Origin: Streptantibioticus cattleyicolor NRRL 8057 = DSM 46488
Lineage (GTDB): Bacteria; Actinomycetota; Actinomycetes; Streptomycetales; Streptomycetaceae
Reading direction: 5' to 3'
Length of the DNA: 64,000 nucleotides
Assembly (NCBI RefSeq): GCF_000240165.1
Contig: NC_017586.1
Location: 4,539,228-4,603,227 of the forward strand
Below are positions 35,409 through 54,768 of the stretch, piece after piece. Numbering within the stretch: the stretch's first letter is position 1; each line of letters begins with the position of its first letter. The notes under the pieces were generated by a model. The model had not been told where the DNA came from, did no database searches, and was given only the letters and a program-made list of their open reading frames with translations. Both the position numbers and the translations under genes were made by a program.

Positions 35409-35428
35409 CACCACCCGCGACGGTGGTG
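35409..35428 (-). terminator. Possible terminator at the end of the biosynthetic operon
   Basis: CACCACC-CGCGAC-GGTGGTG, a 7-base-stem hairpin, lies 10 bases beyond the stop of the CDPS-like gene. The stem is short, so support is modest. Confidence 0.4.
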
Positions 35429-35438
35429 CCGACCACGA

Positions 35439-36161
35439 CTATGCCGCGTCGCGCACCACGCGGGCCGGGCGCACCACGGCGTACCCCTGGTCGCGCGCGG
35501 CCCGCAGTCCGCTGCCGCGGCCGAAGAGCACCTCGGCGAGCGGGGTGGCCACCGGGTGGCAGAAGACCGAGGAGGGCACCCCCAGCAGCCCCGGGGTGTC
35601 CACCAGGAACGGCAGCTCGGCGGTGAGGTAGGCCCGCCCGGCCCGCAGCTGGTCCTCGGTGGCCGGCCCGCTGTCCTGCAACCGGGAGGCCAGGAACTGC
35701 TGCACGGTGTGGTCGCACGCCTGGCGCAGCTCGTCCTCGGCGGTCAGCGCCGCCTCGACGCGGTGGCACAGCACCCGGTACATGTGGTGGTCGGCGAAGT
35801 CCGACAGCGCCCGCACCCGTACCCGCCGGCCGGCCGCGCCCGCCTCGCGCACCCCCTGCGCGATCGTGGCGCGCACCGCCCGGTCCAGCGCCGCGGCGCG
35901 CCGCCGCGCGTCCCACGGATCGTGCCCGAAGGCCGCCAGCACCCCCTCGACGCCCAGATCGGTCCGCACGACGTCCACCTGCCCGAAGTGCCGCGCCGAC
36001 CAGCAGGTCAGCGCCGCGATCCGGTCCGCGGACGCGCCCGGGCTCCACGGGCCCACCGGGATCGTCAGATGGGCGCCCTCCTCCCAGATCAGCCGGCACG
36101 TGTGGGTGACCGGGAAGAACCCGAAGCCCACCGCGGTGTCCGGGCCGGCGGCGTCAGCCAT
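35439..36161 (-). CDS. Cyclodipeptide synthase (CDPS) homologue lacking the catalytic serine
   Basis: CDPSs use two aminoacyl-tRNAs to make cyclodipeptides through an aminoacyl-Ser intermediate. From ATG 36161 this protein is 240 residues and aligns, by my memory of S. noursei AlbC (239 residues), almost without gaps. AlbC Tyr178 and Glu182 are kept at the same numbers in AYLTAELPF; DTPG and VPSSVF follow, and the C-terminus ends like AlbC (YAVVRPARVVRDAA). But catalytic Ser37 is Gly37 (IPVGPWSPG), Asn40 is Ser40 and Tyr202 is His202. Normal cyclodipeptide formation is therefore doubtful. It may still bind aminoacyl-tRNA and transfer to another acceptor (inference). It is the last gene of the cluster, 174 bases after the PPTase gene; a TTG at 36182 is an alternative start. 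Confidence 0.8.
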   Translation of the reverse strand: MADAAGPDTAVGFGFFPVTHTCRLIWEEGAHLTIPVGPWSPGASADRIAALTCWSARHFGQVDVVRTDLGVEGVLAAFGHDPWDARRRAAALDRAVRATIAQGVREAGAAGRRVRVRALSDFADHHMYRVLCHRVEAALTAEDELRQACDHTVQQFLASRLQDSGPATEDQLRAGRAYLTAELPFLVDTPGLLGVPSSVFCHPVATPLAEVLFGRGSGLRAARDQGYAVVRPARVVRDAA

Positions 36162-36335
36162 GGTCGGTCGGCCGCTGCGCAAGGCATCCTCACCCCTCCT
36201 GCCGCGAGTCCCGGGGAGCCTCGTACTCCTGGTGTGGCGGCAGCAACCAGAAGCTACCTCGCGAACCCGGAGGGTGACCGGGACGGCCGCAGGATGTCCG
36301 GTTCCGCACTCCGGCTGGCCGGTAACCGCCACCGG

Positions 36336-36716
36336 TCAGCCGGAGCGCGGCACGCCGATCGCGGCGGCCACCACCACGCCCTTCTTGTGGGTGATGGAGA
36401 CGCTGATGTCCGCGATCCCGCGGGCCTCGGCGTGCCGGGCGGCGGCGCCCGACAGCCGTACCACCGGGCCGCCGTCCTCGGTCCGCAGGATCGCCACCTG
36501 GCGCGGGGTCACCCCCGCGCCGACGCCGGTGCCGATCACCTTGAGCGCGGCCTCCTTCCCGGCGAAGCGCCCGGTGAGGAACTCCCGGGCCCGCCGCTCG
36601 CCGAAGGCGTCCGCCGCGGCCAGCTCCTCCGGGGCGTAGGTGTAGGCCCGGAACCAGGGGCGCCGCAGCAGGGCGGCCAGCTCGTCCTCGTGGAGCACGT
36701 CCACACCGATCCACAC
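36336..36716 (-). CDS. AcpS-type 4'-phosphopantetheinyl transferase, copy 1
   Basis: Attaches phosphopantetheine from CoA to the conserved Ser of carrier proteins. It has 126 residues from GTG 36716 (VWIGVDVLHEDEL). The metal/CoA motifs are IGVDV near residue 3, FAGKEAALKVIGTG (Mg-binding Glu, Lys) near 52-65, and DISVSITHKKGVVVAAA at the C-terminus. GGGGGCGG precedes the start, which lies 13 bases after the acyl-CoA dehydrogenase stop. A second such enzyme is encoded at 44403. Confidence 0.88.
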   Translation of the reverse strand: MWIGVDVLHEDELAALLRRPWFRAYTYAPEELAAADAFGERRAREFLTGRFAGKEAALKVIGTGVGAGVTPRQVAILRTEDGGPVVRLSGAAARHAEARGIADISVSITHKKGVVVAAAIGVPRSG

Positions 36717-36729
36717 CCGGGCCGCCCCC

Positions 36730-37914
36730 TCACGCCAGGAAGGTCCGCTTGACCACGCCCTGGAAGACCGCCAGCCGCTGGATGTGGCCGGTGCCCTCCA
36801 TGAACTCGAAGGCCCGCGCGTCCCGGTGGAGCTTGTTCAGGTACGGGTCGGCCGCCAGCGCCCCGGGGCCCAGCAGTTCGGCGGCGACCACGGTGGCCTC
36901 CTCGGCCAGTTCGGCGGCGCGGGTCTTGACGGCGGCGATGCGGTCGGCGCGCACCGACCCGGCGTCGATCGCCGCCGCCACCTCGTAGTTGCGCCGCCGT
37001 ACCGCGGCCAGCCGGTCCCGCACCTCCTCGTACCGCAGGCGGGCCGTCCCGGTCGGCGCGGGCCGCTGCTCGCGTACGTGGTCTAGGACGGCCCGGGCCA
37101 GCCCGACGGCGGTGCCGGCCAGCACCGGGCGGAACCGCTGGAGGGTGCGGATGGCGCCGACCAGGCCGCGCCGGGTGGGCTTGAGCGTGTCGTACCCCAG
37201 GATCTGCTCGCGCTCCACCCGTACGTCCCGCAGCGTGATCGCGGAGATCCGGGCGCCGCGCATGCCGACCGTGGGGATCGGCTCGGCGTGGAAGCCGGGG
37301 GAGGAGGTGTCCACCAGCACCGCCTCGATGCCCAGCGGCCCTGGCGCGCGGCGGCAGAAGACCACGCCGAGCTGGGCGTAGGCCGCGTTGCCCACGTAGG
37401 CCTTGGCGCCGTCGAGGCGGAAGCCGTCGCCGTCCGGGGTGAGCGCGGTCTCCAGCTCGGTGGCGGCCGACCCCTTCTCCGGCTCGGTGAGCCCGAAGAA
37501 CGTCCACACCGGGTCGGGTCCGGCGAGCCGCTGGTAGTAGGCGTGGCGCTGCTTGTCGTCGCCGAGCGCCGAGACGGCCACCCCGGACATCAGCGGGCCG
37601 GGGCAGGCCAGCATGAAGCCGGCGTCGCCGTAGCTCAACTCCTCGATGGTGATGGTGTGTTCCAGGCAGGAACTCATGTCGAAGGTGTGGCCGCCGGCCC
37701 GGACCGGCTCCGCGAGGTACTCCACCGGGACGGTGCAGCGGCGCATGATGTCCACCGCGGCCAGATGGAGGTGGCGGTCGATGGCGGTGGGGTCGCGGTC
37801 GATCTCCAGGCCGGCCTCGCGCAGCTCCCGTGCCGCCTCGCGGACGTGGGAGCGCAGTACGGCGGTGCGGTGCGGGTCGGGGCCCGGCGGCGGCTCGTCC
37901 GGCGTGTGGCTCAT
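36730..37914 (-). CDS. Acyl-CoA (acyl-carrier) dehydrogenase, full length
   Basis: A 394-residue FAD flavoprotein expected to introduce an alpha,beta double bond into a thioester. Domains: N-terminal helices (1-130), beta domain with FGLTEPEKGSAATELETAL (about 140-160), and C-terminal helices ending with the base-bearing segment FEFMEGTGHIQRLAVFQG, where Glu of EGT is the usual catalytic base. ATG 37914 overlaps the preceding stop as TGATG. The neighbouring half-size dehydrogenase suggests a heteromeric complex. In this cluster the substrate is probably carrier-bound (inference). Confidence 0.88.
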   Translation of the reverse strand: MSHTPDEPPPGPDPHRTAVLRSHVREAARELREAGLEIDRDPTAIDRHLHLAAVDIMRRCTVPVEYLAEPVRAGGHTFDMSSCLEHTITIEELSYGDAGFMLACPGPLMSGVAVSALGDDKQRHAYYQRLAGPDPVWTFFGLTEPEKGSAATELETALTPDGDGFRLDGAKAYVGNAAYAQLGVVFCRRAPGPLGIEAVLVDTSSPGFHAEPIPTVGMRGARISAITLRDVRVEREQILGYDTLKPTRRGLVGAIRTLQRFRPVLAGTAVGLARAVLDHVREQRPAPTGTARLRYEEVRDRLAAVRRRNYEVAAAIDAGSVRADRIAAVKTRAAELAEEATVVAAELLGPGALAADPYLNKLHRDARAFEFMEGTGHIQRLAVFQGVVKRTFLA

Positions 37915-38498
37915 CACCGTTCTCCCGGGTGCAGATAGGTGTTGCCGAGCAGTTCGGTCAGGTGGAGCAGGCTGCCGGGGCCGGTGGCCACGAAGCCGCT
38001 GGCGCCGTGCAGTTGGAGCGCGGCGCGCCCCGCGGTGACCAGCCGCCGGTGGACGTGCCGGCGCCGGCCGGCGGTGGGGTCCGCCAGGGCGAGCAGGTCC
38101 TCCGCCTCGGACAGCACGAGCGCCACGTCGGCCACCGCGCCTTGCACCAGCTGGCGGTTGAGCAGGTTGGCGCCCTCGGAGCGGCGCTGGTCGAGCCGGG
38201 CCACGGCGGCGTCCAGCACCCCGCGCACCGCCTCGCGGTGCAGGCGCACCAGCCCGTCGGCGAACGCCTCCAGCACCTCCGCCGGGGCGGCCGGTGCGCC
38301 ACCGGCCATCGCCACCGCCGCCCCCGCGCCGCCCGGCACCGGCACCCCGCCGGGCAGCCGCGCGGTCGAGGCGATCACCCAGCCGTCGCCCGAGGCCACC
38401 AGCGCGCCGGGGGCGGCGGCATCGTGGCAGGCGTCGAGCGCGCGGGCGAACCCGTGCAGCGCGGTGGGGTCCGCGTACCGCGTCTCAGCCGAGGCCAT
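37914..38498 (-). CDS. Stand-alone C-terminal acyl-CoA dehydrogenase-like domain
   Basis: A 194-residue protein resembling only the C-terminal helical domain of acyl-CoA dehydrogenases: LLNRQLVQGAVADVALVLSEAEDLL and AALQLHGASGFVATGPGSLLHLT match the family's helix pair and the QLHGG-G segment. The N-terminal domains and the EGT catalytic glutamate are absent (the end reads GNTYLHPGER). ATG 38498 overlaps the upstream gene by 14 bases. The best guess is a structural partner of the 36730-37914 enzyme; a decayed gene is possible, though tight coupling on both sides argues it is maintained. Confidence 0.65.
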   Translation of the reverse strand: MASAETRYADPTALHGFARALDACHDAAAPGALVASGDGWVIASTARLPGGVPVPGGAGAAVAMAGGAPAAPAEVLEAFADGLVRLHREAVRGVLDAAVARLDQRRSEGANLLNRQLVQGAVADVALVLSEAEDLLALADPTAGRRRHVHRRLVTAGRAALQLHGASGFVATGPGSLLHLTELLGNTYLHPGER

Positions 38499-39321
38499 CG
38501 CCGGCCCCCTCCCCGGCCGCCGGCGACCGCAGCACCGCCAGGTGGCTCGTCCCCGACCGCGGATCGGTGTCGCAGAGCACCACGACGGCGTACCGGCGTT
38601 GCCAGTCGCGCCACTCGCGGGCCAGCGCCAGCCAGACACCGGTGCAGTAGGTGCCCGGCTCGACCCGGTACCGGTGGACGTCCCCGGTGAGCCCGGCGTC
38701 GTCGAACCGGGAACCGGTGACCAGCAGCGTTCCTTCCGGGTCCTTGGCGGCCAGCTCCGCGGCGCGCGGGGCGGCCGGCTCACCGGCGGGCACCGTGACC
38801 ACCTCGTCGACGCGCGGCCCGTCGCCGTCGTCGAGGACCAGCGCCACCGCGCTGTCGACCAGGTCGCCGTCGTGGACCAGCGGGAACCGGGAGGGCAGGG
38901 TGGTCTGCTCCAGGACGGCGAGCACGGCGGTGCGGCTGCGCCCGGCGCGCTGGAAGGCCGCGATGGCGCGCAGCGCGGTGAACGGCGCCGACAACCCCTG
39001 CTGGTGGATGCCGAAGTTGGTGCTGCCGCCGCCGAGCCGCCGGTCCAGATAGGGGCCGATCGCGGTGAACGGGGTGATGTCCGGCAGCGCCTGTGCCACC
39101 ACCACCAGGTCCGGGGCGCAGCGGCGCAGCGTGTCGTCGGCGGTGAGCAGGTCGACCAGGTCGGTGTGGCCCACGTGGGGCGCCGAGCGCAGCAGCGCCT
39201 CGTCGACCTCGGTGCCGAACGGCTCGACCAGGTCGCGGTAGTAGGCGAGTCGGGCCGGGTCCTCGTCGTAGGGCCTGGGCGGCGGGGAGACCACCGCGCG
39301 GGCGGCGCGCAGAGCAGGCAT
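38485..39321 (-). CDS. Thiolase-fold (KAS-like) protein without catalytic cysteine
   Basis: A 278-residue protein whose N-half resembles a ketosynthase III: APDLVVVAQALPDITPF, then GIHQQGLSAPFTALRAIAAFQ at the nucleophile-helix position, where KAS enzymes have Cys. Gly/Leu stands there instead. The C-half has CTGVWLALAREW and a closing strand RSGTSHLAVL, as in thiolase folds, but no obvious His/Asn partners. It may be a chain-length-factor-like or acyltransferase partner of the KAS III at 42277 (inference). ATG 39321 lies 8 bases after the carrier-protein stop. Confidence 0.55.
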   Translation of the reverse strand: MPALRAARAVVSPPPRPYDEDPARLAYYRDLVEPFGTEVDEALLRSAPHVGHTDLVDLLTADDTLRRCAPDLVVVAQALPDITPFTAIGPYLDRRLGGGSTNFGIHQQGLSAPFTALRAIAAFQRAGRSRTAVLAVLEQTTLPSRFPLVHDGDLVDSAVALVLDDGDGPRVDEVVTVPAGEPAAPRAAELAAKDPEGTLLVTGSRFDDAGLTGDVHRYRVEPGTYCTGVWLALAREWRDWQRRYAVVVLCDTDPRSGTSHLAVLRSPAAGEGAGDGLG

Positions 39322-39329
39322 CGGCCGCC

Positions 39330-39590
39330 TCACACCCCGCTGGTGGCCTGCTGGGACAGGACGTAGTCGGTCAGCGAGCCCACCGACCGGAAGTCGTCCA
39401 TGTCCAGGTCCTCCGGGTCCACCGAGATCTCCACCGCGTCCTCCAGCGCCATCAGCAGCTCCAGGATCGAGGTGGAGTCCAGGTGCAGGTCCTCGAAGAG
39501 GCGGGTGTCCTCGGTCAGGCCGGTGACCTCGCGTTCCAGCACCTCGCTCAGGGCGGTCTCGACCGCGGTCACCACCGTGTGACGTTCCAT
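39330..39590 (-). CDS. Acyl carrier protein 1 (BtrI-like context)
   Basis: An 86-residue free-standing carrier protein. The phosphopantetheine site is Ser in EDLHLDSTSILEL (about residue 39). Helices 1-4 are typical, and acidic residues dominate helix 2-3 (VDPEDLDMDDF). AAGGAGG precedes ATG 39590. It lies directly downstream of the ATP-grasp and PLP-decarboxylase genes, the arrangement of BtrI with BtrJ and BtrK in butirosin biosynthesis, where the ACP carries glutamate and then gamma-aminobutyrate. Confidence 0.9.
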   Translation of the reverse strand: MERHTVVTAVETALSEVLEREVTGLTEDTRLFEDLHLDSTSILELLMALEDAVEISVDPEDLDMDDFRSVGSLTDYVLSQQATSGV

Positions 39591-39641
39591 CGTGTTGTGT
39601 TCCTCCTTGATCGGGGCCCCCGGACGCGGGGGCCCGGCCGG

Positions 39642-40913
39642 TCAGCCGAAGTCGACGAGGTGCTGCTTGGCGAGGATCTCCGCGGCGCGGTCCCGCTCCC
39701 GCACCAGGTGCGCGGTGCCCTGGTGGACGAGGACTTCCGCCGGGAAGCCGTGGCTGAGGAAGAGCCCCGGGGAGGCCGTCGGGCCGTAGGCGCCGGACCG
39801 CTCCACCCCGAGCAGGTCGCCGGGTTCGACCGGGGGCAGCTGGACCTTCTTGCCGATCACGTCGTTGGGGGTGCACAGCGGACCGGTGACGGTGTACGAC
39901 CCGGCCGCGGGCTCGTGGTAGCGGGTGAGCGAGCGGATGGGGAAGTTGCGCTTGACGAAGCTGCCCACGCCGACCGCCGCCATGTGGTGGTTGGTGCCGC
40001 CGTCGGCGACCACGAACGTCTCGCCCATCGACTCCTTGACGTACAGCGCGCGCACCACGTACGTGCCGCACAGCGCGGTCAGGTAGCGCCCCAGCTCGTT
40101 GACGAGCCGGCAGCCGGGGTGGCGGGCGGCGAAGGGCTCGACGGCCTCGTTGATCCCGGCGACCGTCGCCGCCAGGTCCAGCTCCTTCTCGTTGTCGAAG
40201 TACGCCACGCCGAAGCCGCCGCCGAAGTCCACCGTCTCCAGCGGTACGTCCAGCGCCTGCGCCAGCTCCTCGGCCATGGCGAGGATCCGCCGGGTGTTGT
40301 GGACCAGGTCGTCCGCGTTGAGGAACCGGGTCCCCAGGTAGGCGTGGAAGCCGCGTACCCGCACCCGGCGCAGCCCGGCGACGACGTCCCGGGAGCGGCG
40401 CAGCACCTCGGCGTCGATGCCGAACTGCCGGGGCTTGCCGCCCATCGCCAGCCCCGAGCCCTTGGTGTGGAAGTCGGGGTTGACCCGCAGCAGCACCGGC
40501 ACCTCGTCGCGGCCCGCGTCCGCCGCGATCTCCTCGACCACGGCGAGTTCGGCCGGCGACTCGCAGACGATGGCGTGCAGCCCGGCGGCCACGCACCGCT
40601 CCAGCTCGGCACGGGTCTTGCCGGGCCCGAGGAAGATCACGTCCCGGGCGGCGAACCCGGCCCGCTCCACGGTGAGCAGCTCGGCCATGGAGGAGATCTC
40701 CGCCCCCGCGCCCAGCGAGCCGAGGTAACCGGCGACCGAGACGTTGGGGTTGGCCTTGAGCGAGTAGAAGACGTCCACCGCCGGGTGGAGCCGGTCCCGC
40801 AGCGAGCGGTAGACGGTACGCAGCACCTCGGCGTCGTAGACGAACAGCGGGGTGCCGAACTCCTCGGCGAGCCGCGACACCGGCACGCCCTGCACATGGA
40901 ACTCGGTGGTCAT
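39642..40913 (-). CDS. PLP-dependent fold III decarboxylase, BtrK-like
   Basis: A 423-residue alanine-racemase-fold decarboxylase of the diaminopimelate/ornithine group. The PLP lysine is in VFYSLKANPNVS (about residue 46). Further landmarks are GPGKTRAELE, HAYLGTRFLN, the phosphate-binding GGGFGVAYF, and the C-terminal active-site segment GPLCTPNDVIGKKV with SGAYG. These details match what I remember of BtrK, which decarboxylates gamma-glutamyl-ACP, better than free-amino-acid decarboxylases. ATG 40913 overlaps the ATP-grasp stop as TGATG. The likely reaction is gamma-Glu-S-ACP to 4-aminobutyryl-S-ACP. Confidence 0.88.
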   Translation of the reverse strand: MTTEFHVQGVPVSRLAEEFGTPLFVYDAEVLRTVYRSLRDRLHPAVDVFYSLKANPNVSVAGYLGSLGAGAEISSMAELLTVERAGFAARDVIFLGPGKTRAELERCVAAGLHAIVCESPAELAVVEEIAADAGRDEVPVLLRVNPDFHTKGSGLAMGGKPRQFGIDAEVLRRSRDVVAGLRRVRVRGFHAYLGTRFLNADDLVHNTRRILAMAEELAQALDVPLETVDFGGGFGVAYFDNEKELDLAATVAGINEAVEPFAARHPGCRLVNELGRYLTALCGTYVVRALYVKESMGETFVVADGGTNHHMAAVGVGSFVKRNFPIRSLTRYHEPAAGSYTVTGPLCTPNDVIGKKVQLPPVEPGDLLGVERSGAYGPTASPGLFLSHGFPAEVLVHQGTAHLVRERDRAAEILAKQHLVDFG

Positions 40914-42271
40914 CAGGTCCCTCCCAGGCCGGTCAGCGCGGTGGCCACCGCGCGGTCGAGCTCGCCGAGCCCGTCCCGGCCGGCGGCGAACAGCAGGGTG
41001 TACAGCCGTCCCTCGAACGGTCCGGGGCCGGTGCCCGCCTGCGCGTTGACGGTGCCGAAGCAGGTGACGACCACTCCGGTGGACCCGTGCGGCGGTTCGG
41101 CGAGCGGGCCGAGCGCCGCGGTCACCTCGTCGAAGGAGACCGGGCGGGCCGGCCGCAGCGGATAGTGCTTGGCGAGCGCGGCGCCCCCCTCGGTGAGGAA
41201 GCGCTCGGTGATCCGGCCCTGGTAACTGGACATGTTGAGGCGGGCGTTGATCTCCAGCACCGGGTAGACCAGGTCGTCGGCGCCGAGCAGCGCGTCCACC
41301 CCGACGACGCCGAAGAACCCGTCCGCGTACAGCCGCGCGCCCAGCTTCCCGGCGGCCTCGGCCAGCGTCGCGTGCTGCGCGGGGGTCAGGGCGGCCGGCA
41401 TCACATGGCCGAGGTGGACACCGCCCGAGGTCAGCGCCTCCTTGACGAAGTCCAGGCGCACCCGCCCGGCGTGGTCGACGGTGAACTGGTAGTTGAGGTC
41501 GAACCGCTTGGGCAGGAACGACTCGACCACCACGTGGATCGAGTCGTCGCCGGTGGACGTGGCCCGGCGCTCGACCATCCTCAGCAGCCGGTCGGCCTTG
41601 CGGCGGCTGTCGAGGACGATCAGGCCCTTGCCGGAGACCCCGTAGGCGTCCTTGACGATCACCGGGCCGCCGTCGGCGAGGCCGTGTTCCAGGGCGTGGC
41701 GCAGCTCGCCGACCGTCTCGCAGCAGAAGCCGGGGATCGGGCGCAGCCCCAGCTCCTCGGTGACCCGGCGGCTGTAGATCTTGCTGTTGACCCGCTCGTG
41801 GACGGCCGCGTCCGGAACGGCGAGGGGCAGCCCGGTCTCCCGGGCGATCCGCTCCACCAGCGGGGAGTTGCCCATCGGCATCAGCCGGGCGCCGCCGGCG
41901 GCCAGGGCGCGCAGCCGGTCCAGCAGTCCGGGGTCGTCCAGGACGGCCTGGCCGGTGCCGCCCTCCCGTGCGGGGGCGGCGGTGACCAGTTCGGCCGGGG
42001 CGCCCAGGCCCGTCTTCTCGACGTAGCGGCGGTAGGACGCGTCCAGCGGCCGGTCGAGCAGCAGGTGGTCGGTGGGCTCGGCGAGCAGCGCGCCCAGCTC
42101 CTCCATCCGCTGCACGGTGGCGCTGGTGGCGCTCACGCGCGCGGCCGGCAGCCCGCGGTAGCCGCGGGCCCACTCGTTCTCCACCTCGAAGTTGCACAGC
42201 CAGACGAACGGGGTGGCGCGGTCGCCGGTGAGCGCTTCCTTCAGTTCGGCGGTGTAGACCGTGGTGTCCAT
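40913..42271 (-). CDS. ATP-grasp amino acid:carrier protein ligase, BtrJ-like
   Basis: A 452-residue ATP-grasp ligase. ATP-binding segments are PVIVKDAYGVSGKGLIVLDS (about 195-214) and VVESFLPKRFDLNYQF; the metal site is PVLEINARLNMSSYQGR (about 345-360). Such enzymes make an acyl phosphate and couple it to a nucleophile, here by context the pantetheine thiol of a carrier protein. The neighbour pattern (BtrK-like decarboxylase overlapping, ACP next) supports glutamate activation as in BtrJ. ATG 42271 is used; GTG 42280 would overlap the KAS III stop as GTGA and add three residues. Confidence 0.85.
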   Translation of the reverse strand: MDTTVYTAELKEALTGDRATPFVWLCNFEVENEWARGYRGLPAARVSATSATVQRMEELGALLAEPTDHLLLDRPLDASYRRYVEKTGLGAPAELVTAAPAREGGTGQAVLDDPGLLDRLRALAAGGARLMPMGNSPLVERIARETGLPLAVPDAAVHERVNSKIYSRRVTEELGLRPIPGFCCETVGELRHALEHGLADGGPVIVKDAYGVSGKGLIVLDSRRKADRLLRMVERRATSTGDDSIHVVVESFLPKRFDLNYQFTVDHAGRVRLDFVKEALTSGGVHLGHVMPAALTPAQHATLAEAAGKLGARLYADGFFGVVGVDALLGADDLVYPVLEINARLNMSSYQGRITERFLTEGGAALAKHYPLRPARPVSFDEVTAALGPLAEPPHGSTGVVVTCFGTVNAQAGTGPGPFEGRLYTLLFAAGRDGLGELDRAVATALTGLGGT

Positions 42272-42276
42272 CGCGC

Positions 42277-43227
42277 TCACCGCTTCCGGTGGGTGATCAC
42301 CATGGCGCCGAAGGTGGCGCCGAGGCCGACGGAGACGAGCACGTAGTGGTTGCCGTCGACCAGCCGGCCCGCCTCGCGCAAGGTGGTGTAGTTGACGAAG
42401 ACGTCGGAGGCGTAGGTGTGGCTGTAGCGCTCGACGTTGGCCAGGAAGAACTTCGCCGGGTCGGCCCCCATCTCCTTGATCGTGCCGCGCCAGGAGACCG
42501 TGTTGACGTTGTGCGGGACGACCAGGTCGATGTCGTCGAAGCCGAGGCCGGCCGCCGCGACCGCCTCGTGGATCACCTCGCCCAGCACGGTGGCGTAGAC
42601 CCGGCCGAACGCCTGGGTCTCCTCCTTGGTCATCTCCAGGCCGGCGGCGAACTCGCCCAGGGTACGGGTGACATGGGAGCGCACCAGGTCGCCGGGGCCG
42701 CCGGTGGTGAGCAGGCAGGCGGCGGCGGCGTCGGCCATGATCGCGCTGTTGGGGATGAGCCGGACCTTGGGCGAGTACGCCCGCTCCCCGGTCACCATCA
42801 GCGCGTAGGCCCCCTCGGGCGCCTCGGCGCGCAGCAGCTCCCCGGCCAGGTCGATGGCGCCCAGGCTGCTGACGCACGCCTGCTGGGTGAGGGCGAACGC
42901 CTCGGCCTCGTACAGCCCCAGCTCCTCGCGGATCACCTGGGCGGCGTCGATGTGCGGCGGGGTGAGCGTCTGCATGGTGTGGGCGTAGATGACGTACTCC
43001 ACCGTCCGCCCCTCCGGCAGCGCCTTGAGCGCCTGGCGGGCGGCCGGGAGCACCAGGTCGAACAGGCCGGTGCGCGGGTCGAACCGGAGCCGGTCGAGCC
43101 CGTAGATCTTGCGGAACACCCCGATCTCGGCGCGCCGCAGCCCCAGGCTGCCGGCCAGGTCGTCGATGCGCACGCCGCGTTCGGGGAGGAACGACTCGAT
43201 GCGCTCCAGCGTCGTCGTGCCGCTCAT
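42277..43227 (-). CDS. 3-oxoacyl-ACP synthase III-like enzyme
   Basis: A 316-residue KAS III/FabH-fold enzyme with the catalytic triad visible: Cys in FALTQQACVSSLGA (about 115), His in DLVVPHNVNTVSW (about 240), and Asn in YASDVFVNYTTL (about 275). C-terminal glycine-rich VSVGLGATFGAMVI closes the thiolase fold. It could perform decarboxylative condensation on a carrier-bound starter or act as an acyltransferase. ATG 43227 starts 4 bases after the methyltransferase stop. Confidence 0.88.
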   Translation of the reverse strand: MSGTTTLERIESFLPERGVRIDDLAGSLGLRRAEIGVFRKIYGLDRLRFDPRTGLFDLVLPAARQALKALPEGRTVEYVIYAHTMQTLTPPHIDAAQVIREELGLYEAEAFALTQQACVSSLGAIDLAGELLRAEAPEGAYALMVTGERAYSPKVRLIPNSAIMADAAAACLLTTGGPGDLVRSHVTRTLGEFAAGLEMTKEETQAFGRVYATVLGEVIHEAVAAAGLGFDDIDLVVPHNVNTVSWRGTIKEMGADPAKFFLANVERYSHTYASDVFVNYTTLREAGRLVDGNHYVLVSVGLGATFGAMVITHRKR

Positions 43228-43231
43228 GCGG

Positions 43232-44083
43232 TCACCTTCCTTCTCGGTGGCCGGGTCTGCGGCCGGCGTACTCGGCCAGCACCAGCCAGCTGCGGGGGGC
43301 GCCCCCGCGGTCGCGCGGCTGCACCTCGTACGGCCAGCGCCCGGCCCCGGCGCCCGGTTCGCCGGGCTCCTTCAGATCGCGCACCTTCCAGCCGGCCGCG
43401 GCGCAGAACCCCTCGGGGTCGTCGGTGCCGAAGCGCCACGGGGTGCCGTCCTCCTCCAGGCCCTTGAGGAAGGGCCGGGAGAACGGGCTGCGCAGCAGGG
43501 CCTCGCTGACGAAGTCCACGGCGAGCCGGCTGCCCGGCGCCGAGACCGAGCCCAGCGTGGCCAGCAGCCCGGCCGCCTGCTCCTCGGTGAGGAAGAGCAT
43601 CAGCCCCTCGGTCACCCACAAGGTGGGCCGCCGCGGGTCGAACCCGGCCCGGCGCAGCGCGGGCAGCCACGTCCCGGCGAGGTCGGCGGCGACCTCCCGG
43701 CGCTCGACCACCGGTTCGGCCCCCAGCGCGGCCAGCCGGCGGCGCTTCTCCTCGATGAGCGCGGCGTGGTCCACCTCGTACACCGTGGTGCCGGCCGGCC
43801 AGTGCAGCCGGAACGCCCGGGTGTCCATCCCGGCGGCGACCAGGACGACCTGCCGGACGTCCGCCTCGCGCAGCACGCTCTCCACGCCGTCGTCCAGGTA
43901 CTTGGTGCGGATGGCGATGAACGGCAGCAGACCGCCGCCGCCGTACTTCTCCAGCAGTTCGAAGCCGCGCGGCGCGGCCAGTTCGCGGGCGAACGGGTCG
44001 GTGAACATCGCGTCGCCGGGGCGTTCGGACTCCACGGCCCGCGCCGCCGCCGTCCACTGGGCCGTGTACGAGACCGCTTCCAC
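43232..44083 (-). CDS. Class I SAM-dependent methyltransferase (LCMT/TIGR00027-like)
   Basis: A 283-residue methyltransferase of the leucine-carboxymethyltransferase-like family common in actinobacteria. SAM motif I is VVLVAAGMDTRAFRL (about 78-92), the acidic loop ending motif II is YEVDHAALIEEKRRRL, and post-I is LWVTEGLMLFLTEEQ. Members methylate carboxyl, O or N groups; the target here is unknown. The start is GTG 44083 with AGGAGG upstream. It sits between carrier protein 2 and KAS III. Confidence 0.87.
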   Translation of the reverse strand: MEAVSYTAQWTAAARAVESERPGDAMFTDPFARELAAPRGFELLEKYGGGGLLPFIAIRTKYLDDGVESVLREADVRQVVLVAAGMDTRAFRLHWPAGTTVYEVDHAALIEEKRRRLAALGAEPVVERREVAADLAGTWLPALRRAGFDPRRPTLWVTEGLMLFLTEEQAAGLLATLGSVSAPGSRLAVDFVSEALLRSPFSRPFLKGLEEDGTPWRFGTDDPEGFCAAAGWKVRDLKEPGEPGAGAGRWPYEVQPRDRGGAPRSWLVLAEYAGRRPGHREGR

Positions 44084-44108
44084 GGTGGGTGTGCCTCCTG
44101 GTGGGGGG

Positions 44109-44348
44109 TCAGGCGGTGACGAAGAACGCCTTCTCGATGGCCGAAAGGGTCTGGAAGTCCTGGATGTCGATGCTGTCGAAGTCGATCTCGACGCCGCTGG
44201 CCGCCTCGATGGCGTAGACCAGCTCGACGAAGGAGAGCGAGTCGACCAGCCGGCTCTCGATGAGGTTCTCGTCGGGCGCGAGGGAATCCCGTTCCGGGTG
44301 CCGGCCGAGGATCCAGTCGCGCACGTCGTCGATGCCTGCCGAAGCCAT
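44109..44348 (-). CDS. Acyl/aminoacyl carrier protein 2
   Basis: A 79-residue carrier protein with the modified serine in ESRLVDSLSFVELVYAIE (about residue 37). It resembles the small carriers that partner amino acid:carrier protein ligases, one of which is encoded 0.45 kb upstream, with a PPTase gene between. The obvious proposal is that the ligase at 44804 loads an amino acid onto this protein. Confidence 0.9.
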   Translation of the reverse strand: MASAGIDDVRDWILGRHPERDSLAPDENLIESRLVDSLSFVELVYAIEAASGVEIDFDSIDIQDFQTLSAIEKAFFVTA

Positions 44349-44402
44349 GGGTGTGCTCCTCAGTTGTCTTCTCGGGGGGTGGGTCCGGGGCAGGCCCGGC
44401 GT

Positions 44403-44807
44403 TCAACGGGCGGCGGCCGGCAGCGGCGTGCCGTGGGCGACGGCGATCGCGAAGGGATCGTCGTGCGCGATGCTCACCTCGATGTGTCCGATCCCGGCGG
44501 CGCGGGCCAGCCGGGCGGCGCGTCCGCCGAGGTGTACGACGGGCCAGCCGCCGTCGTCCTTGAGGATCTCGATGCCCAGCCAGGGCAGCGTCTGCCCGGG
44601 GGCGTGGAAGAGCTTGAAGACCGCTTCCTTGGCGGCGAGCCGCCCGGCGATCCCGGGGATGTCGGGCCCGGAGGCGGTGCGGGTGAGCCGCAGCTCCGCC
44701 GCCGAGAGCATCCGGGCGAGCACGGCGGCCGTGCCGGGTCCGCCGGGCTCGACGAGGCGGCGCACCCTGCCGAAGGGGACCAGGTCGACGCCGACCCGGC
44801 CGTTCAC
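44403..44807 (-). CDS. AcpS-type 4'-phosphopantetheinyl transferase, copy 2
   Basis: A 134-residue PPTase: VGVDLVPFGRVRR (metal-binding Asp) at the N-terminus, RLAAKEAVFKLFHAPG near 56-70 (Glu and Lys), and GIGHIEVSIAHDDPFAIAVA at the C-terminus. GTG 44807 overlaps the ligase stop as GTGA. It diverges considerably from copy 1 at 36336, so the two may serve different carriers. Confidence 0.9.
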   Translation of the reverse strand: MNGRVGVDLVPFGRVRRLVEPGGPGTAAVLARMLSAAELRLTRTASGPDIPGIAGRLAAKEAVFKLFHAPGQTLPWLGIEILKDDGGWPVVHLGGRAARLARAAGIGHIEVSIAHDDPFAIAVAHGTPLPAAAR

Positions 44808-45664
44808 CGTGCGGAGGTCTTCCGGTCCGCGGCGCGCACGGCCTCCAGGGCGGCCGGGGCGTCGCCGCCGTGCGCGTCGAGCAGCACCGACAGCCAGCGC
44901 TCCAGCCCGAAGGCGACGCAGCCGGTGTAGGCGTAGCTGTCGGTGCCGGCCCGTTTGATCGCGCAGCGCTCGCCGAAGAAGTTGCGGTGGGTGTTGACCG
45001 AGGCGATCGCCAGCCCGTCGAGCTGGAACTCGTACTTGACCGGGCTGAGCCTGGCCAGCAGCGCGCGGGCGCCGTCGTTGCTGAAGAACGGGTCGGTGGC
45101 GGCCTCCTTGGCCAGCGGCAGCGCCAGGGCCTCGGCGAACGCGGTGATCCGGGCGGTGAAGTCGGCGATCACCCGCTGGGTGTGCTCGTAGGCGCCCAGC
45201 GCCACGATCTCGCGCATCTGGAAGGTGAGCAGCCGGCGCAGCCCGCTGTAGTGGGTCTCGTTGCGGAAGCAGCGGTTGACCAGGGTGACCAGGGTGTCGT
45301 CGGCGACGTGGGTGCCCTCGTAGTACAGGTAGGCGCCGTAGCAGGTGGCGTGCGGCAGCCCCAGCCGCGCCGGGAGCAGGTCGCCGGGGGCGAACCGGCC
45401 CTGCTCCGGCCTGCCCTCGCCGGTCTGGAGGTCCAGCGGGGCGGCGGCCAGCGCCAGGTGCGGGAAGTTGTCGTAGACGTCGAACTTCTCCAGGTCGGAG
45501 ACGGGGTACAGCGGCGGCGGCAGGATCTCGCGGGCCCCGGCCGAGGCGCCCCAGCCGGCGAAGATCCGGTCCAGTTCGCGCAGCAGGTCGGTCCGGTCCG
45601 GGTCGAGGATGACCAGCGCCTGTGTGAGGTCGGCGGCGGCCGTCGGCTGTGCGGTGGACGTCAT
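44804..45664 (-). CDS. Amino acid:carrier protein ligase (SerRS-like class II aaRS homologue)
   Basis: A 286-residue class II aminoacyl-tRNA-synthetase core without a tRNA-binding arm. Such proteins activate an amino acid with ATP and load it on a carrier protein's pantetheine. Seen here: SDLEKFDVYDNFPHL, motif 2 FRNETHYSGLRRLLTFQMREIV, motif 3 FGLERWLSVLL. Cys in HATCYG, Glu in RNE and Cys in TGCVAFGLER match the Cys-Glu-Cys zinc site described for the Bradyrhizobium enzyme (from memory). ATG 45664 overlaps the diiron oxygenase stop (ATGA). The amino acid is not predictable here; studied relatives take Gly or Ala. Confidence 0.87.
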   Translation of the reverse strand: MTSTAQPTAAADLTQALVILDPDRTDLLRELDRIFAGWGASAGAREILPPPLYPVSDLEKFDVYDNFPHLALAAAPLDLQTGEGRPEQGRFAPGDLLPARLGLPHATCYGAYLYYEGTHVADDTLVTLVNRCFRNETHYSGLRRLLTFQMREIVALGAYEHTQRVIADFTARITAFAEALALPLAKEAATDPFFSNDGARALLARLSPVKYEFQLDGLAIASVNTHRNFFGERCAIKRAGTDSYAYTGCVAFGLERWLSVLLDAHGGDAPAALEAVRAADRKTSAR

Positions 45665-46530
45665 CGGATGATCCCCGTCTTCTGGAGGAACCGGGTGGTC
45701 TTGCGGAAGACGCCGGCCTCGAACCCGGCGCGGGCCGGCGAGGCGAGGAGTTCCCGGCGCAGCGCCAGCGGGTCCTCGATCCCGGCGTCCCGGTAGACCT
45801 GCGGGTTGTACAGCGACTCGAAGCTGTAGGCCAGGTAGCGCTTGAGGTAGTCGGAGATCTCCGTCAGCTCCTGCTCGGTCGAGGTGCGCCGGACCTCGTC
45901 GAAGAGCGCGGAGACCAGTTCCCGGCCGAAGGCGATGTGGCGCGACTCGTCCTGGTGGTGGATCCGGTTGAGCGCGCGGATCGTCCGGTGCAGCCGTTCG
46001 TCGAGCGCCATCCGGGAGTTGAAGTGGTCCACCAGCTCCTCGAAGATCAGGATGCGGGCGAAGACCAGCAGCGATTCCACGCTGGAACGCGGTATCTCCG
46101 CGGCGGCGCCGGCCGGCTGCCGGTAGATCTTCCCGCCGTACCGCAGGCAGAACTCGGCGAAGAACCACATGTGTTCGTTCTCTTCGCCGATGAAGTGGTG
46201 GAAGAACTCGGACGGGGTCTCGAAACCGGTGGTGTGGATCCGCCGGGTGACCTCGATGAGCAGTTCCCGGATGCCGTGCACGTTGAGGCTGTAGAAGTTG
46301 ACGCTCTCGTAACGCGACAACGCGTGGAGCTGTTTCTCGCTCAGGCGGCGGGCCGCTTCCGTGCCGTGCGTGGTGGTGAGTTCCGGGCTCATCCACCACA
46401 TCTCCTCGGGCAGGCTGTCCGGCCATTCGAAGAGCTTGTACGGGTTGTAGTAGTCCTCGATCGATTTCGTGGTCAGACGATCGAGGATTCCGAGGAACCG
46501 GTCATCACGATCGATCACGTTGCTGACCAT
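45661..46530 (-). CDS. AurF-type diiron N-oxygenase
   Basis: A 289-residue helical-bundle protein with two ExxH iron motifs, EENEHMWFF (about 115) and DESRHIAFGRE (about 200), plus further ligands in the helices between (IFEELVDHF, NRIHHQDE). This is the ligand order of AurF/CmlI, which oxidise amines stepwise to hydroxylamine, nitroso or nitro groups. ATG 46530 has GGAGGG upstream. It heads the 14-gene array, so its promoter must lie in 46531-46641. An inverted pair ACTGTC/GACAGT at 46547-46576 is a possible regulatory site. Confidence 0.87.
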   Translation of the reverse strand: MVSNVIDRDDRFLGILDRLTTKSIEDYYNPYKLFEWPDSLPEEMWWMSPELTTTHGTEAARRLSEKQLHALSRYESVNFYSLNVHGIRELLIEVTRRIHTTGFETPSEFFHHFIGEENEHMWFFAEFCLRYGGKIYRQPAGAAAEIPRSSVESLLVFARILIFEELVDHFNSRMALDERLHRTIRALNRIHHQDESRHIAFGRELVSALFDEVRRTSTEQELTEISDYLKRYLAYSFESLYNPQVYRDAGIEDPLALRRELLASPARAGFEAGVFRKTTRFLQKTGIIR

Positions 46531-46641
46531 GCCGGAGCACCCTCCAACTGTCTCGAAATTGCCTGCGATTGACAGTAAGGAGGGCTTGCCGACGGCCGCA
46601 ACGACCGAAAGTGGCGTGGCCGCATCCGGCCACCGGGCCGG

Positions 46642-47181
46642 TCAGCTCAGCAGACGGGCCGCGATGGCCTTGGCGCGGCGGGCCGGCTCGCCGCTGTGGG
46701 TGCGCAGCGCGATGACGATCGCGCCGTCCATCAGCAGCGTGAACTGGTCGGCGAGCGCCTGGTGGTCGGCGTGGCCGGCGTCGGCGAGCAGCCGGTCGAC
46801 GAAGGCGTTGACCGCGCGCTTGTGCTCGGCGGCGAGCCGGTGCACCTCGCTGCCGGGGTCGGTGATCTCGACCATGGCGTTGATGAAGGCGCAGCCGCGG
46901 TAGTCCTCCGCCTCGGCGCCCTCGGCGAGCGCGTCGAAGACGGCCAGCGGATCGTTGCCGCGCTTGGCGACCGCCTCCTCCAGCCACGCCCGCCACCGTT
47001 CGTCACGGCGCCGCAGCACGGCGGCGACCAGCTCCTCCTTGCCGGAGAAGTGGCGGTAGAAGGAGGCCCGGCCGACCCCGGAGACGGCCAGCAGCCGCTC
47101 GACGCCGACGGCGCGGATGCCCTCGGCGTAGAAGAGGTCGTCCGCGGCCTGGAGCAGGCGTTCGCAGGCACGGGTCGGCAT
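46642..47181 (-). CDS. TetR-family repressor
   Basis: A 179-residue regulator: N-terminal helix-turn-helix GVERLLAVSGVGRASFYRHF (about 27-46), then the all-helical ligand domain with CAFINAMVEITDPGSEV. ATG 47181 is used. It diverges from an MFS exporter gene, and the gap holds two copies of an 18-base near-palindrome, so it most likely represses itself and the exporter. It also lies upstream of the biosynthetic array on the same strand. Confidence 0.9.
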   Translation of the reverse strand: MPTRACERLLQAADDLFYAEGIRAVGVERLLAVSGVGRASFYRHFSGKEELVAAVLRRRDERWRAWLEEAVAKRGNDPLAVFDALAEGAEAEDYRGCAFINAMVEITDPGSEVHRLAAEHKRAVNAFVDRLLADAGHADHQALADQFTLLMDGAIVIALRTHSGEPARRAKAIAARLLS

Positions 47182-47211
47182 GCCCCAACGGTATCCCACC
47201 TTGACGTCATT

Positions 47212-47257
47212 CGGAACCGATCGGTACCGTTCCGGCAGACGGAACCGATCGGTACCG
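47212..47257. promoter_or_regulatory. Tandem TetR operator
   Basis: CGGAACCGATCGGTACCG occurs twice, at 47212-47229 and 47240-47257, 28 bases apart. Each copy is an imperfect palindrome (CGGNACCGATCGGTNCCG). Both lie between the divergent tetR and MFS starts. Confidence 0.85.
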
Positions 47258-47313
47258 AATGCTGGCCGGCCACGGCCGCGCCACGACGCGGGCAGGGGAA
47301 GGGCGGGAGGCGC

Positions 47314-48522
47314 ATGAGGTTGCCACGGGGCGTGCTGGTGCTCGGCTTCGGCACGTTCGCGCTCGGGACGGACGAATTCGTACTGGCCGGGGTGCTGCCC
47401 CAGTTCAGCAGGTCGCTGGGGGTCTCCATCGCCACCGCCGGCCAGGTGGTCACCGCCTTCGCGCTCACCTGCGGCCTGCTCTCGCCGGTGCTGGCCACCG
47501 CCACCGCCGCCTGGTCCCGGCGCCGGGTGCTCGTCCTGGCCGTGCTGCTCCACCTGGCCGGGGCCGTCGCCACCGCGCTGGTCCCCAGCTACCCGCTCGT
47601 CCTGCTCGCGCAGATGGTGGCCGCGGCCGGCGCCGGGATGTTCGTCCCCGCCGCCAGTGTCACCGCCGCCGCGCTCGTCCCGGCCGAACGCCGCGGCCGG
47701 GCGATCGCTGCGGTGACCACCGGGCTGACCGCGGCCACCGCGCTGGGCGCCCCGATCGGCACCGTCCTCGGCAGCGCGCTGGGCTGGCGGGCCACCATGG
47801 CCTTCATCGCCGTCCTGGCGCTGCTCGCCCTGGCCGGGGTGGCCACCATGGTGCCCGCGGTCGCCGCGCCCGCCCCGGACGGGCTGCGCCGGCGGCTCGC
47901 CCCGCTCGCCGACCGCCGGGTGCTGGCGGTGCTCGCCACCACCCTGGTCGCCTTCACCGCCGCCTACATCGTTTACACCTACCTCGCCGAGGTCTTCGCC
48001 CCGGCCACCGGCGGCCGGGGCGCACGGCTGGCCGCCCTGATGTTCGCCTTCGGGACGACCGGCACCCTCGGCAACTACGGCGCCGGCACGCTCGCCGACC
48101 GCTTCGGCGCCCGCCGCGTGGTGACCGGCGCCATCGCCCTGCTCGCCGTCAGCCTGGCGGTACTGCCGCTGGCCACCGGCGACTTCCCCGCCGCCGTCGC
48201 CGTCGTGGTGGTCTACGCCGTCGCCGCCTGGGCGATCACCACGCCGCAGCAGCACCGGCTGATCACCCTCGACCCCGACGCCGCGCCGCTGGTCGTCTCC
48301 CTCAACGCGGCCTTCCTGTACCTGGCCATCGCGCTGTCCGGGGTGGTCGGCGCGGTCGGCATCGGGCTCGTCGGCGCCGGACGGATCAGCCTGATCGGGG
48401 CCGCCGTGGCCCTGGTCGCCCTGGGCCTGTCCGAACTCGGCCACCGGCTCGCCGTCCGCGACGGCGCGCCCGCCCCGGCCCCACCCGCCCCCGCCGGGTC
48501 CACCGAACCGTCACGCGGCTGA
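47314..48522 (+). CDS. MFS drug exporter, copy 1
   Basis: A 402-residue, 12-helix major facilitator (DHA1, chloramphenicol-resistance-like). FGTFALGTDEFVLAGVLP is helix 1, and the loop 2-3 region reads AAWSRRRVLVLAVLL. GAPIGTVLGSALGWR is the antiporter motif C region in helix 5. ATG 47314 follows GGGCGGGAGG. It has an ortholog-like partner at 52945. Probable role: export of, or self-resistance to, the cluster product. Confidence 0.9.
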   Translation: MRLPRGVLVLGFGTFALGTDEFVLAGVLPQFSRSLGVSIATAGQVVTAFALTCGLLSPVLATATAAWSRRRVLVLAVLLHLAGAVATALVPSYPLVLLAQMVAAAGAGMFVPAASVTAAALVPAERRGRAIAAVTTGLTAATALGAPIGTVLGSALGWRATMAFIAVLALLALAGVATMVPAVAAPAPDGLRRRLAPLADRRVLAVLATTLVAFTAAYIVYTYLAEVFAPATGGRGARLAALMFAFGTTGTLGNYGAGTLADRFGARRVVTGAIALLAVSLAVLPLATGDFPAAVAVVVVYAVAAWAITTPQQHRLITLDPDAAPLVVSLNAAFLYLAIALSGVVGAVGIGLVGAGRISLIGAAVALVALGLSELGHRLAVRDGAPAPAPPAPAGSTEPSRG

Positions 48523-54426: not shown

Positions 54427-54768
54427 ATGCCCAGGACGGAAGACACCTGGCTGCCCCAGCCCGACCTCGACGAGGTGGAGATCGGGACGGTCCTCCAGGC
54501 CCTCGCCGACCCGGTGCGCCTGCACATCGTGCGGCTGCTCGACGCCGAGGGGGAGGGATCGTGCACCTCGCTCGACGTCCCCGTCAAGCGGTCGACCGTC
54601 TCCCACCACCTGCGCACCCTGCGGGAGAGCGGCGTGGTGGCCACCCGGCTGGTCGGCAACTCCCGGCTCAGCCGGCTGCGCCGGGACGACCTCGAACGCC
54701 GCTTCCCCGGGCTGCTGACGTCCATCCTGAACGCCGCCGCACCACTGGCGCGCACACCCGTCGGCTGA
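54427..54768 (+). CDS. ArsR-family repressor
   Basis: A 113-residue winged-helix regulator. ALADPVRLHIVRLL (about 25-38) and the recognition helix KRSTVSHHLRTLRESGVV (about 58-75) are textbook ArsR/SmtB. No metal-binding CxC pattern is present (single Cys in GSCTSL), so it likely senses something other than metal or acts as a simple repressor. ATG 54427 has GGAGG upstream. It probably controls the divergent MFS gene and the downstream flavoprotein gene. Confidence 0.9.
   Translation: MPRTEDTWLPQPDLDEVEIGTVLQALADPVRLHIVRLLDAEGEGSCTSLDVPVKRSTVSHHLRTLRESGVVATRLVGNSRLSRLRRDDLERRFPGLLTSILNAAAPLARTPVG

Follow-up and report, generated by a model that had tools for sequence, protein, structure and literature searches.

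What can a bacterium assemble from amino acids with two free carrier proteins and no megasynthase? The question is raised by a gene cluster of Streptantibioticus cattleyicolor NRRL 8057 = DSM 46488, contained in a stretch of 64,000 nucleotides (nt) of contig NC_017586.1 that we analysed as a whole (hereafter the window, whose coordinates are used throughout). Fourteen tightly spaced open reading frames (ORFs) occupy positions 35439-46530 of the minus strand, and a codon-usage scan calls all of them as genes, one of them, a homologue of cyclodipeptide synthases (CDPS), with a shorter start. A sequence-only reading of the same DNA had described these frames and their overlaps, and both are present as it described them: ATGA between the genes of an AurF-type oxygenase and an aminoacyl-tRNA synthetase (aaRS)-like ligase, GTGA between the latter and the first of two AcpS-type phosphopantetheinyl transferases (AcpS1), GTGA again between two dehydrogenase genes, and TGATG between the genes of an ATP-grasp ligase and a BtrK-like decarboxylase. 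The families that it assigned (AurF, aaRS-like ligase, two AcpS, two carriers, methyltransferase, ketoacyl-acyl carrier protein synthase III or KAS III, ATP-grasp/BtrK-like pair, dehydrogenase pair and CDPS) hold in Pfam, NCBIfam and PDB comparisons.

We read the cluster as an enteromycin-class system joining two gene sets already known from other antibiotics, not as a new kind of system. Comparison with other genomes indicates that 13 of the 14 genes (36336-46530) are a conserved unit of two portable cassettes, A and B, and their core product is probably of the enteromycin type. The earlier suggestion that an amino-acid-derived, N-oxidised metabolite is built stepwise on free carriers is thereby supported: no nonribosomal peptide synthetase (NRPS) or polyketide synthase (PKS) megasynthase, of multidomain C-A-PCP or KS-AT type, was found among the 14 genes, six flanking genes and ten further proteins scanned with Pfam. 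Apart from the cluster limits and the CDPS homologue, treated below, we differ on two points. The enzyme set had been called unfamiliar, but each half has a precedent in published papers (PMC9967187 and PMC11035981; PMC7756342 and PMC12186527), and both halves are complete in seven other genomes. The product had been left without a name, and the two halves together point to enteromycin or its carboxamide.

Conservation and limits of the gene cluster

Related loci, labelled with L-numbers (L157 and L158 are in the S. cattleyicolor genome itself), were collected by similarity to three proteins of the cluster: the aaRS-like ligase and two proteins of the KAS III fold, KS3 and KSx. KSx had matches in 43 of 293 genomes of the same order (E 1e-5) and in 5 of 394 genomes of the same class (E 1e-20); the ligase had matches at 64 loci of a named genome collection, none of them named as S. 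achromogenes, and in 104 of 394 genomes of the same family (E 1e-30). Stretches of at most 20 kb were taken around 20 plus three of the KSx matches and 16 of the ligase matches. The final table holds 46 loci of up to 25 kb each, some stopping at contig edges. As these were picked by KSx or ligase similarity (25 + 3 + 16) or, for two loci in plasmids, by KS3 similarity, presence counts for those genes are biased upward, and the table's entries for AcpS and for transporters of the major facilitator superfamily (MFS) may include cross-matches. Another 59 named ligase loci (L061-L119) enter only a wider comparison of 84 loci.

Because the same 13 genes stand in the same order in seven other genomes (L036, L037, L038, L172, L173, L174 and L180, or 7 of the 46 loci), we do not regard the arrangement as fortuitous. 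L178 lacks only AcpS1, its apparent match being a cross-match to the second AcpS protein (AcpS2); AcpS1 is also absent from L177, a stretch that ends at a contig edge. Of the three genes that the sequence-only reading had singled out for their co-occurrence, the aaRS-like ligase and the BtrK-like decarboxylase do recur together in these seven complete loci, whereas the CDPS homologue recurs in none of the 46.

The limits of the cluster change at both ends. Since seven genes past 46530 have counterparts beside the relatives, we take the conserved cluster, as judged by synteny, to be 36336-55435, with 13 minus-strand core genes and these seven genes; the core thus stands as first delimited, the CDPS homologue falls outside, and the end moves from 46530 to about 55435. 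Consensus promoters and terminators were sought in 34500-47000, and none was found.

Cassette A: a predicted route from glycine to an O-methyl nitronate

Cassette A consists of the following genes:

45661..46530, minus strand: AurF-type diiron oxygenase (PF11583, E 5e-30)
44804..45664, minus strand: aaRS-like amino acid:[carrier protein] ligase (best PDB relative 3mey, E 1e-17)
44403..44807, minus strand: AcpS-type phosphopantetheinyl transferase 1, AcpS1 (PF01648, 33.9 bits, cut-off 25)
44109..44348, minus strand: free carrier protein ACP1 (PF00550; nearest NCBIfam model the AmcB cispentacin acyl carrier protein (ACP), below cut-off)
43232..44083, minus strand: LCM/TIGR00027 methyltransferase (PF04072, 8e-49; TIGR00027, 216 bits)

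The ligase scores 99 bits against NF005479 (cut-off 357), and its likeness to Bll0957 (3mey), with which it has in common a SerRS-like catalytic domain and an aligned Cys/Glu/Cys, reaches only the E value given above; the window's ligase sits in a biosynthetic cluster. Residues Cys108, Glu136 and Cys249, which we take to be a zinc site, are conserved in 75 of 75 aligned sequences including the window's, and the 3mey ligase is presumably glycine-specific. The oxygenase is 72-86% identical in most loci with cassette A and 61-63% identical in L185-L187.

By its gene content, the cassette appears to match the glycine-to-O-methyl-nitronate pathway reported for enteromycin carboxamide. Komaki et al. 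(2023; PMC9967187) describe the akazaoxime/A-76356 cluster of Micromonospora humidisoli as having a diiron oxygenase, a carrier protein and an O-methyltransferase for the nitronate, together with an A-PCP protein and a PKS of KS-AT-KR-ACP type, and credit the O-methyl nitronate chemistry to He and Ryan 2021; a second source lists carrier-bound glycine, a diiron oxygenase, a nitronate and a methyltransferase (PMC12183544); and according to a third, two fates are open to the nitronate in Streptomyces achromogenes var. streptozoticus NRRL 3125, O-methylation to give enteromycin and denitrification through a nitronate monooxygenase (PMC11035981). A diiron oxygenase, a carrier and an LCM-type methyltransferase encoded together, the feature of O-methyl nitronate clusters in PMC9967187, are present in the window, and we regard the methyltransferase as a predicted nitronate O-methyltransferase.

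The denitrification branch of this chemistry may be visible among the relatives. A nitronate monooxygenase gene adjoins oxygenase-ACP-ligase homologues in S. echinatus (L107, by Pfam) and on pTM2 of Tistrella mobilis (by annotation), loci that would fit the denitrification branch of PMC11035981; S. lucensis (L108) has the layout of L107, with a similar-sized gene at the position of the monooxygenase. No match to the LCM-type methyltransferase was seen in L107, L108 or Tistrella, and the Tistrella locus carries a different S-adenosylmethionine (SAM) methyltransferase gene.

Cassette A also occurs without KAS genes, in L059 (Microbispora), L060 (Micromonospora qiuiae), L175, L176, L179 and L185-L187. 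Beside it in L059, a Pfam scan found three proteins, of A-PCP, KS-AT-KR-ACP PKS and beta-lactamase-like kind, and L060 has genes that match these in size and position (a layout judged by gene sizes). This is the akazaoxime layout, whose diiron oxygenase, ACP and nitronate O-methyltransferase the window cluster has in common; amide and chain are attributed to NRPS and PKS in PMC9967187, and in the window cluster to cassette B.

Two further observations concern the ligase and the oxygenase. Most of L061-L119, mainly from Streptomyces, have the aaRS-like ligase and a carrier homologue but nothing that matches the AurF-type oxygenase; in these loci the ligase would have a further conserved use. 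In L167, a plasmid of Streptomyces sp. NBC_00335, homologues of the oxygenase, ACP and ligase stand next to genes for a ketosynthase and a chain-length factor; this cluster may make a nitro or nitronate polyketide.

Cassette B: a probable dehydro-beta-alanine half

Together with KS3 and KSx, described in the next section, cassette B comprises:

40913..42271, minus strand: pre-ATP-grasp/ATP-grasp ligase (PF18604, 1e-17; PF02786)
39642..40913, minus strand: BtrK/VinO-type pyridoxal phosphate (PLP) decarboxylase (best PDB relative BtrK, 7ru7/2j66, E 5e-91)
39330..39590, minus strand: free carrier protein ACP2 (PF00550, 6e-10), with Ser at the attachment position in aligned relatives
37914..38498, minus strand: truncated acyl-CoA dehydrogenase-like subunit (partial PF00441, 21.8 bits, just under the cut-off of 22.4)
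36730..37917, minus strand: acyl-CoA dehydrogenase (PF02770, PF00441)
36336..36716, minus strand: AcpS-type phosphopantetheinyl transferase 2, AcpS2 (PF01648, 41.3 bits)

At the level of gene families, cassette B is similar to the genes that make dehydro-beta-alanine for bolagladin and AFC-BC11. For bolagladin, this residue is assigned to BolO, C, N, M, P and Q, which comprise a loader of VinN type, a free-standing ACP, a decarboxylase like BtrK, homologues of KAS III and an acyl-CoA dehydrogenase; deletion of bolN (decarboxylase) abolished the product, and deletion of bolQ (dehydrogenase) gave beta-alanine analogues (Dashti et al., 2020; PMC7756342). Components of these five kinds, the decarboxylase being of BtrK/VinO type and the loader of another family, are encoded together in the window, a comparison made with the text of that paper and not with its sequences. 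Differences exist: the VinN-like aspartate loader of the bolagladin/AFC-BC11 form is not in the window cluster, which has the ATP-grasp ligase at 40913-42271 instead; BolM and BolP are reported with Ser and Thr where KS3 keeps Cys; the bolagladin cassette is an NRPS starter, and the window cluster has no NRPS and has an extra small dehydrogenase subunit. A locus of B. cenocepacia (L166) was considered as a bolagladin/AFC locus; its gene set is alike, but Cys is retained in both of its KAS III proteins, where BolM and BolP are reported to differ, and we do not equate the locus with either cluster.

The ATP-grasp ligase is, we assume, BtrJ-like, and the combination of such a ligase with a carrier and a BtrK-type decarboxylase is also that of butirosin (BtrJ/BtrI/BtrK). 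Butirosin uses it to convert glutamate to gamma-aminobutyric acid (GABA), whereas for the window cluster we predict conversion of aspartate to beta-alanine. L039 and L050 have no match to the ATP-grasp ligase and carry instead an AMP-ligase with 3wvn/3wv4 (VinN) as its nearest PDB match; the L039 enzyme keeps the residues taken as the Asp230 and Arg331 named in PMC7756342, a numbering inferred from an offset. Because these two loci combine such loaders with decarboxylases 72% (L039) and 68% (L050) identical to that of the window, the comparison points to aspartate as the substrate of cassette B.

The same two cassettes could instead join the O-methylnitronate acyl group to another carrier-bound beta- or gamma-amino acid, such as GABA from glutamate, and yield an unknown enteromycin relative. 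The best PDB relative of the decarboxylase is the glutamyl-specific BtrK, the specificity of the ATP-grasp ligase for aspartate is a prediction, and cassette A is common to other product types (those of L059 and of L045, described below). We nevertheless find this version unlikely, in view of the VinN-type loaders adjoining the close decarboxylases of L039 and L050, and of the dehydrogenase, whose best NCBIfam models (acryloyl-CoA reductase and prolyl-PCP dehydrogenase, both far below cut-off) are of C3 or carrier-bound short-acyl enzymes.

Without cassette A, the whole of cassette B stands in unchanged gene order in L051, L162, L163 and L164. In the two of these that were scanned, L051 and L163, a condensation-domain protein and an ABC exporter (DrrAB-like in L163) are encoded beside it. 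A plasmid of Streptomyces decoyicus carries seven of the eight cassette B genes, less similar, with the dehydrogenase on the opposite strand, adjoining an NRPS gene. The complete dehydro-beta-alanine cassettes of L162-L164 belong to another actinobacterial family.

KS3 and KSx, a possible amide-forming pair

The remaining two core genes encode proteins of the KAS III fold:

42277..43227, minus strand: KS3, KAS III-like acyltransferase (PF08541, 4e-16)
38485..39321, minus strand: KSx, Cys-less KAS III-fold protein (AlphaFold2 model and Foldseek)

Aligned to FabH, KS3 has Cys118-His239-His270 in place of the canonical KAS III triad Cys-His-Asn. The equivalent of His239 is found in 22 of 26 KS3 sequences, and His270, at the FabH Asn position, in all 26 (the window's included). 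KSx, which the sequence-only reading had listed as an unusual KAS, has no Pfam match; its AlphaFold2 model (pLDDT 82, from a four-sequence alignment) confirms that label, resembling FabH structure 1hnk (Foldseek E 6e-12, TM about 0.6). At the nucleophile position, judged by eye, 24 of 24 sequences including the window's have a QQG-type motif and no Cys; in L053 a Cys lies one residue beyond. An active and a Cys-less KAS III subunit together would resemble PqsC:PqsB.

We tentatively propose, with a confidence that stops somewhat short of even, that KS3:KSx is a new type of heterodimeric amide synthase, in which a Cys-His-His KAS III and an obligatory Cys-less partner link the acyl group of one free carrier with the amine of a second. 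A heteromeric acyl-ACP dehydrogenase would act next, and the eight genes, as a portable cassette, could thus cap any acyl carrier with dehydro-beta-alanine. A precedent for the chemistry exists in AFC-BC11, whose cluster has no condensation domains and whose KAS III-like enzyme, AfcL, makes a peptide bond (PMC12186527). The likeness extends, by the same source, to assembly on a free carrier, loading and decarboxylation of aspartate, and dehydro-beta-alanine; AFC-BC11 differs in using an iterative A domain of VinN type together with an acyl-AMP ligase, and AfcL has a Cys-His-Asp triad where KS3 has Cys-His-His.

Alternatively, KS3:KSx could make a C-C bond, as in true KAS III elongation, and the product would be a short N-oxidised polyketide-like acid and not an amide. 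Both proteins have the KAS III fold, PqsBC is a heterodimer with a Cys-less partner that performs C-C condensation without the canonical Asn, and other ketosynthase genes lie near L053 and L054. Among the 36 loci where KS3 and KSx both occur, an amine-making, BtrK-like decarboxylase is present in 20 and absent from 16, so that this count can be cited on either side. Set against elongation are the invariant His at the Asn position of FabH, the lack of a malonyl-loading gene among the cluster proteins scanned, and the peptide bond made by AfcL; we consider it quite improbable.

Proposed pathway and product

We take enteromycin to be MeO-N(O)=CH-CO-NH-CH=CH-COOH (C6H8N2O5), in which 3-aminoacrylic acid carries an amide-linked O-methylnitronate-acetyl group, and enteromycin carboxamide to be C6H9N3O4. 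Because cassette A would give the acyl half of this structure and cassette B the dehydro-beta-alanine half, we predict enteromycin or its amide, and because an asparagine synthase gene begins at 48602 we lean, a degree less firmly than for the core, towards the carboxamide itself. Each of the following steps is drawn from homology and synteny. The aaRS-like ligase would load glycine on ACP1, the AurF-type oxygenase would turn glycyl-ACP1 into nitroacetyl/nitronate-ACP1, and the LCM-type methyltransferase would O-methylate the nitronate. On the other carrier, the ATP-grasp enzyme would load aspartate on ACP2 via its side-chain carboxyl, as an iso-aspartyl thioester, and the BtrK-like enzyme would decarboxylate isoaspartyl-ACP2 to beta-alanyl-ACP2. 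KS3:KSx could then take the O-methylnitronate acyl group off ACP1 and attach it to the amine carried by ACP2, forming the amide, and the two-part acyl dehydrogenase would desaturate N-acyl-beta-alanyl-ACP2 to dehydro-beta-alanine. A thioesterase may free enteromycin from ACP2, the asparagine synthase may amidate it to enteromycin carboxamide, and MFS proteins would export the product.

Several points weigh against this assignment. For the AurF-type oxygenase, phmmer at 0.01 found no PDB relative that could serve to align its iron ligands; for the ATP-grasp ligase the only PDB matches are carboxylases, and its aspartate substrate is predicted. PMC7756342 gives the role of KAS III in N-acylation as its authors' proposal only, and in PMC12186527 AfcL, with its different triad, acts late, and an acyl-AMP ligase, not a KAS III, N-acylates the beta-alanyl carrier. 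Among the relatives, L058 (Nocardiopsis potens) has all of cassettes A and B except the dehydrogenase pair. In a third arrangement, found in 12 loci (L040, L042-L047, L056, L057, L181, L183 and L184), cassette A, KS3, ACP2 and KSx occur without loader, decarboxylase or dehydrogenase; after it, L045 has genes for a stand-alone condensation protein, a protein resembling polysaccharide deacetylases, an MFS transporter and a second phosphopantetheinyl transferase, and homologues of the first two are present in L183 and L184, with none seen in L181. KS3 and KSx occur with neither cassette in full in L049, L053, L054 and L055. The third arrangement and these four loci, together the 16 loci without the BtrK-like decarboxylase, are left unexplained by the proposed role of KS3:KSx alone. 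As to the carboxamide, the asparagine synthase of L058 (58% identity) is no closer to the window's copy than the paralogue elsewhere in the S. cattleyicolor genome (57%), so that, by sequence identity, only the L038 copy favours a cluster-specific lineage.

On the other side, a product of this structure fits all 13 core enzymes, and each of them receives a place in enteromycin or its amide, which makes for a testable gene-to-structure assignment. The enteromycin carboxamide pathway is alike in carrier-bound glycine, diiron oxygenase and methyltransferase, as PMC9967187, PMC12183544 and PMC11035981 describe it. The refutation that the sequence-only reading had named, a characterised cluster of known product with the whole gene set, may already exist, work on enteromycin in S. 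achromogenes var. streptozoticus NRRL 3125 having been published. To see whether a relative might be the streptozotocin producer S. achromogenes, 12 of 17 PF14518 matches in three related genomes and that of S. cattleyicolor were inspected by eye for SznF, from the first and last residues of their frames, and none was recognised as such. The assignment links work on nitronates with work on dehydro-beta-alanine, a link that we did not find in the literature searched: PMC7756342 has no mention of enteromycin and, as further carriers of dehydro-beta-alanine, names only the enamidonins. Cassette B, being portable, may help in the mining of genomes and in experiments on amide formation by KAS III enzymes. 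The amide step of KS3:KSx, the two-part dehydrogenase and a retained CDPS homologue with altered catalytic residues are the points of remaining interest.

Genes beyond 46530

The seven further genes of the cluster are:

46696..48522, plus strand: MFS exporter, first (PF07690)
48602..50488, plus strand: asparagine synthase-like amidotransferase (TIGR01536, 484 bits)
50514..51593, minus strand: LuxR-like helix-turn-helix (HTH) regulator (HTH_23, weak, below cut-off)
51590..52408, minus strand: thioesterase (PF00975, 4e-44)
52945..54210, minus strand: MFS exporter, second (PF07690)
54427..54768, plus strand: ArsR-family regulator (PF01022)
54815..55435, plus strand: PNPOx-like split-barrel protein (PF01243)

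The asparagine synthase adjoins the cluster in only two of the 46 loci, L038 and L058. The window's copy, in which Cys2 is present, is 75% identical to that of L038 (over 503 residues, the copy ending at an edge). A mere housekeeping role seems less probable, as the genome contains another full-length copy and the window's copy is closer to that of L038. Counterparts of the thioesterase, 47-62% identical, lie beside L036-L038, L058, L172-L174, L177, L178 and L180.

The second MFS exporter has counterparts of 72-83% identity in L036, L037, L172-L174, L178 and L180. Those of the first, 58-66% identical, are beside L038 and L058; in L036 and L037 its weaker matches fall on a gene with greater similarity to the second exporter. 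The first also has an extra N-terminal stretch of about 170-200 residues outside the Pfam MFS match; in L058 a homologue of this stretch is separate from the MFS gene (about 19547-20077). Homologues of the LuxR-like regulator are 45-64% identical beside the relatives and 27% in L179, and those of the ArsR regulator 66-86% in L036, L037, L058, L172-L174, L178 and L180, with no match in L038. The PNPOx-like protein, found at 57-78% identity in 22 of the 46 loci, including most loci with cassette A and KS3, is a conserved cluster member with no obvious role in the proposed pathway.

The CDPS homologue beside the cluster

One gene of the original run is placed outside the conserved cluster:

35439..36332 (possibly coding from 36161), minus strand: CDPS homologue (PF16715, 3e-82)

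With the start given by the codon scan, ATG 36161, the gap to AcpS2 is 174 bp and not 3. The nearest PDB entry is 2x9q, which we take to be Rv2275. CDPS matches at 1e-8 occur in 98 of 293 genomes, yet the wider comparison of 84 loci, like the 46 loci, contained none. All 24 nearest homologues fetched keep a GVSPGNSYF loop and the catalytic Tyr, features of active CDPS that the window's copy does not show: it has VGPWSPGAS and FCHP. Of 68 homologue-invariant columns it keeps 49, whereas each of the 24 homologues, left out in turn, keeps 97-100%. The alignment suggests that the nucleophile Ser and the Tyr are likely lost; a shifted alignment could place its SPG on the motif.

Because no match occurs in the 46 loci and the active-site residues are changed, we exclude the gene from the cluster and read it, on this comparison, as a decayed or re-used neighbour and not as a pathway step, contrary to the part it had been given before. 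That all 14 genes form one novel pathway with a CDPS step is hardly credible to us, the frame being on the same strand, directly after AcpS2, open and with coding bias, but without a match in the 46 related loci and altered at Ser, the Gly-Asn-Ser-Tyr-Phe loop and Tyr. Recruitment of the Ser-less protein as an extra acyltransferase is also very improbable. Two further CDPS copies in the same genome (L157, L158) have a canonical-looking motif. Adjoining the cluster region, two tandem Big_10/YkuD L,D-transpeptidase genes lie on the plus strand at 30931-33627.

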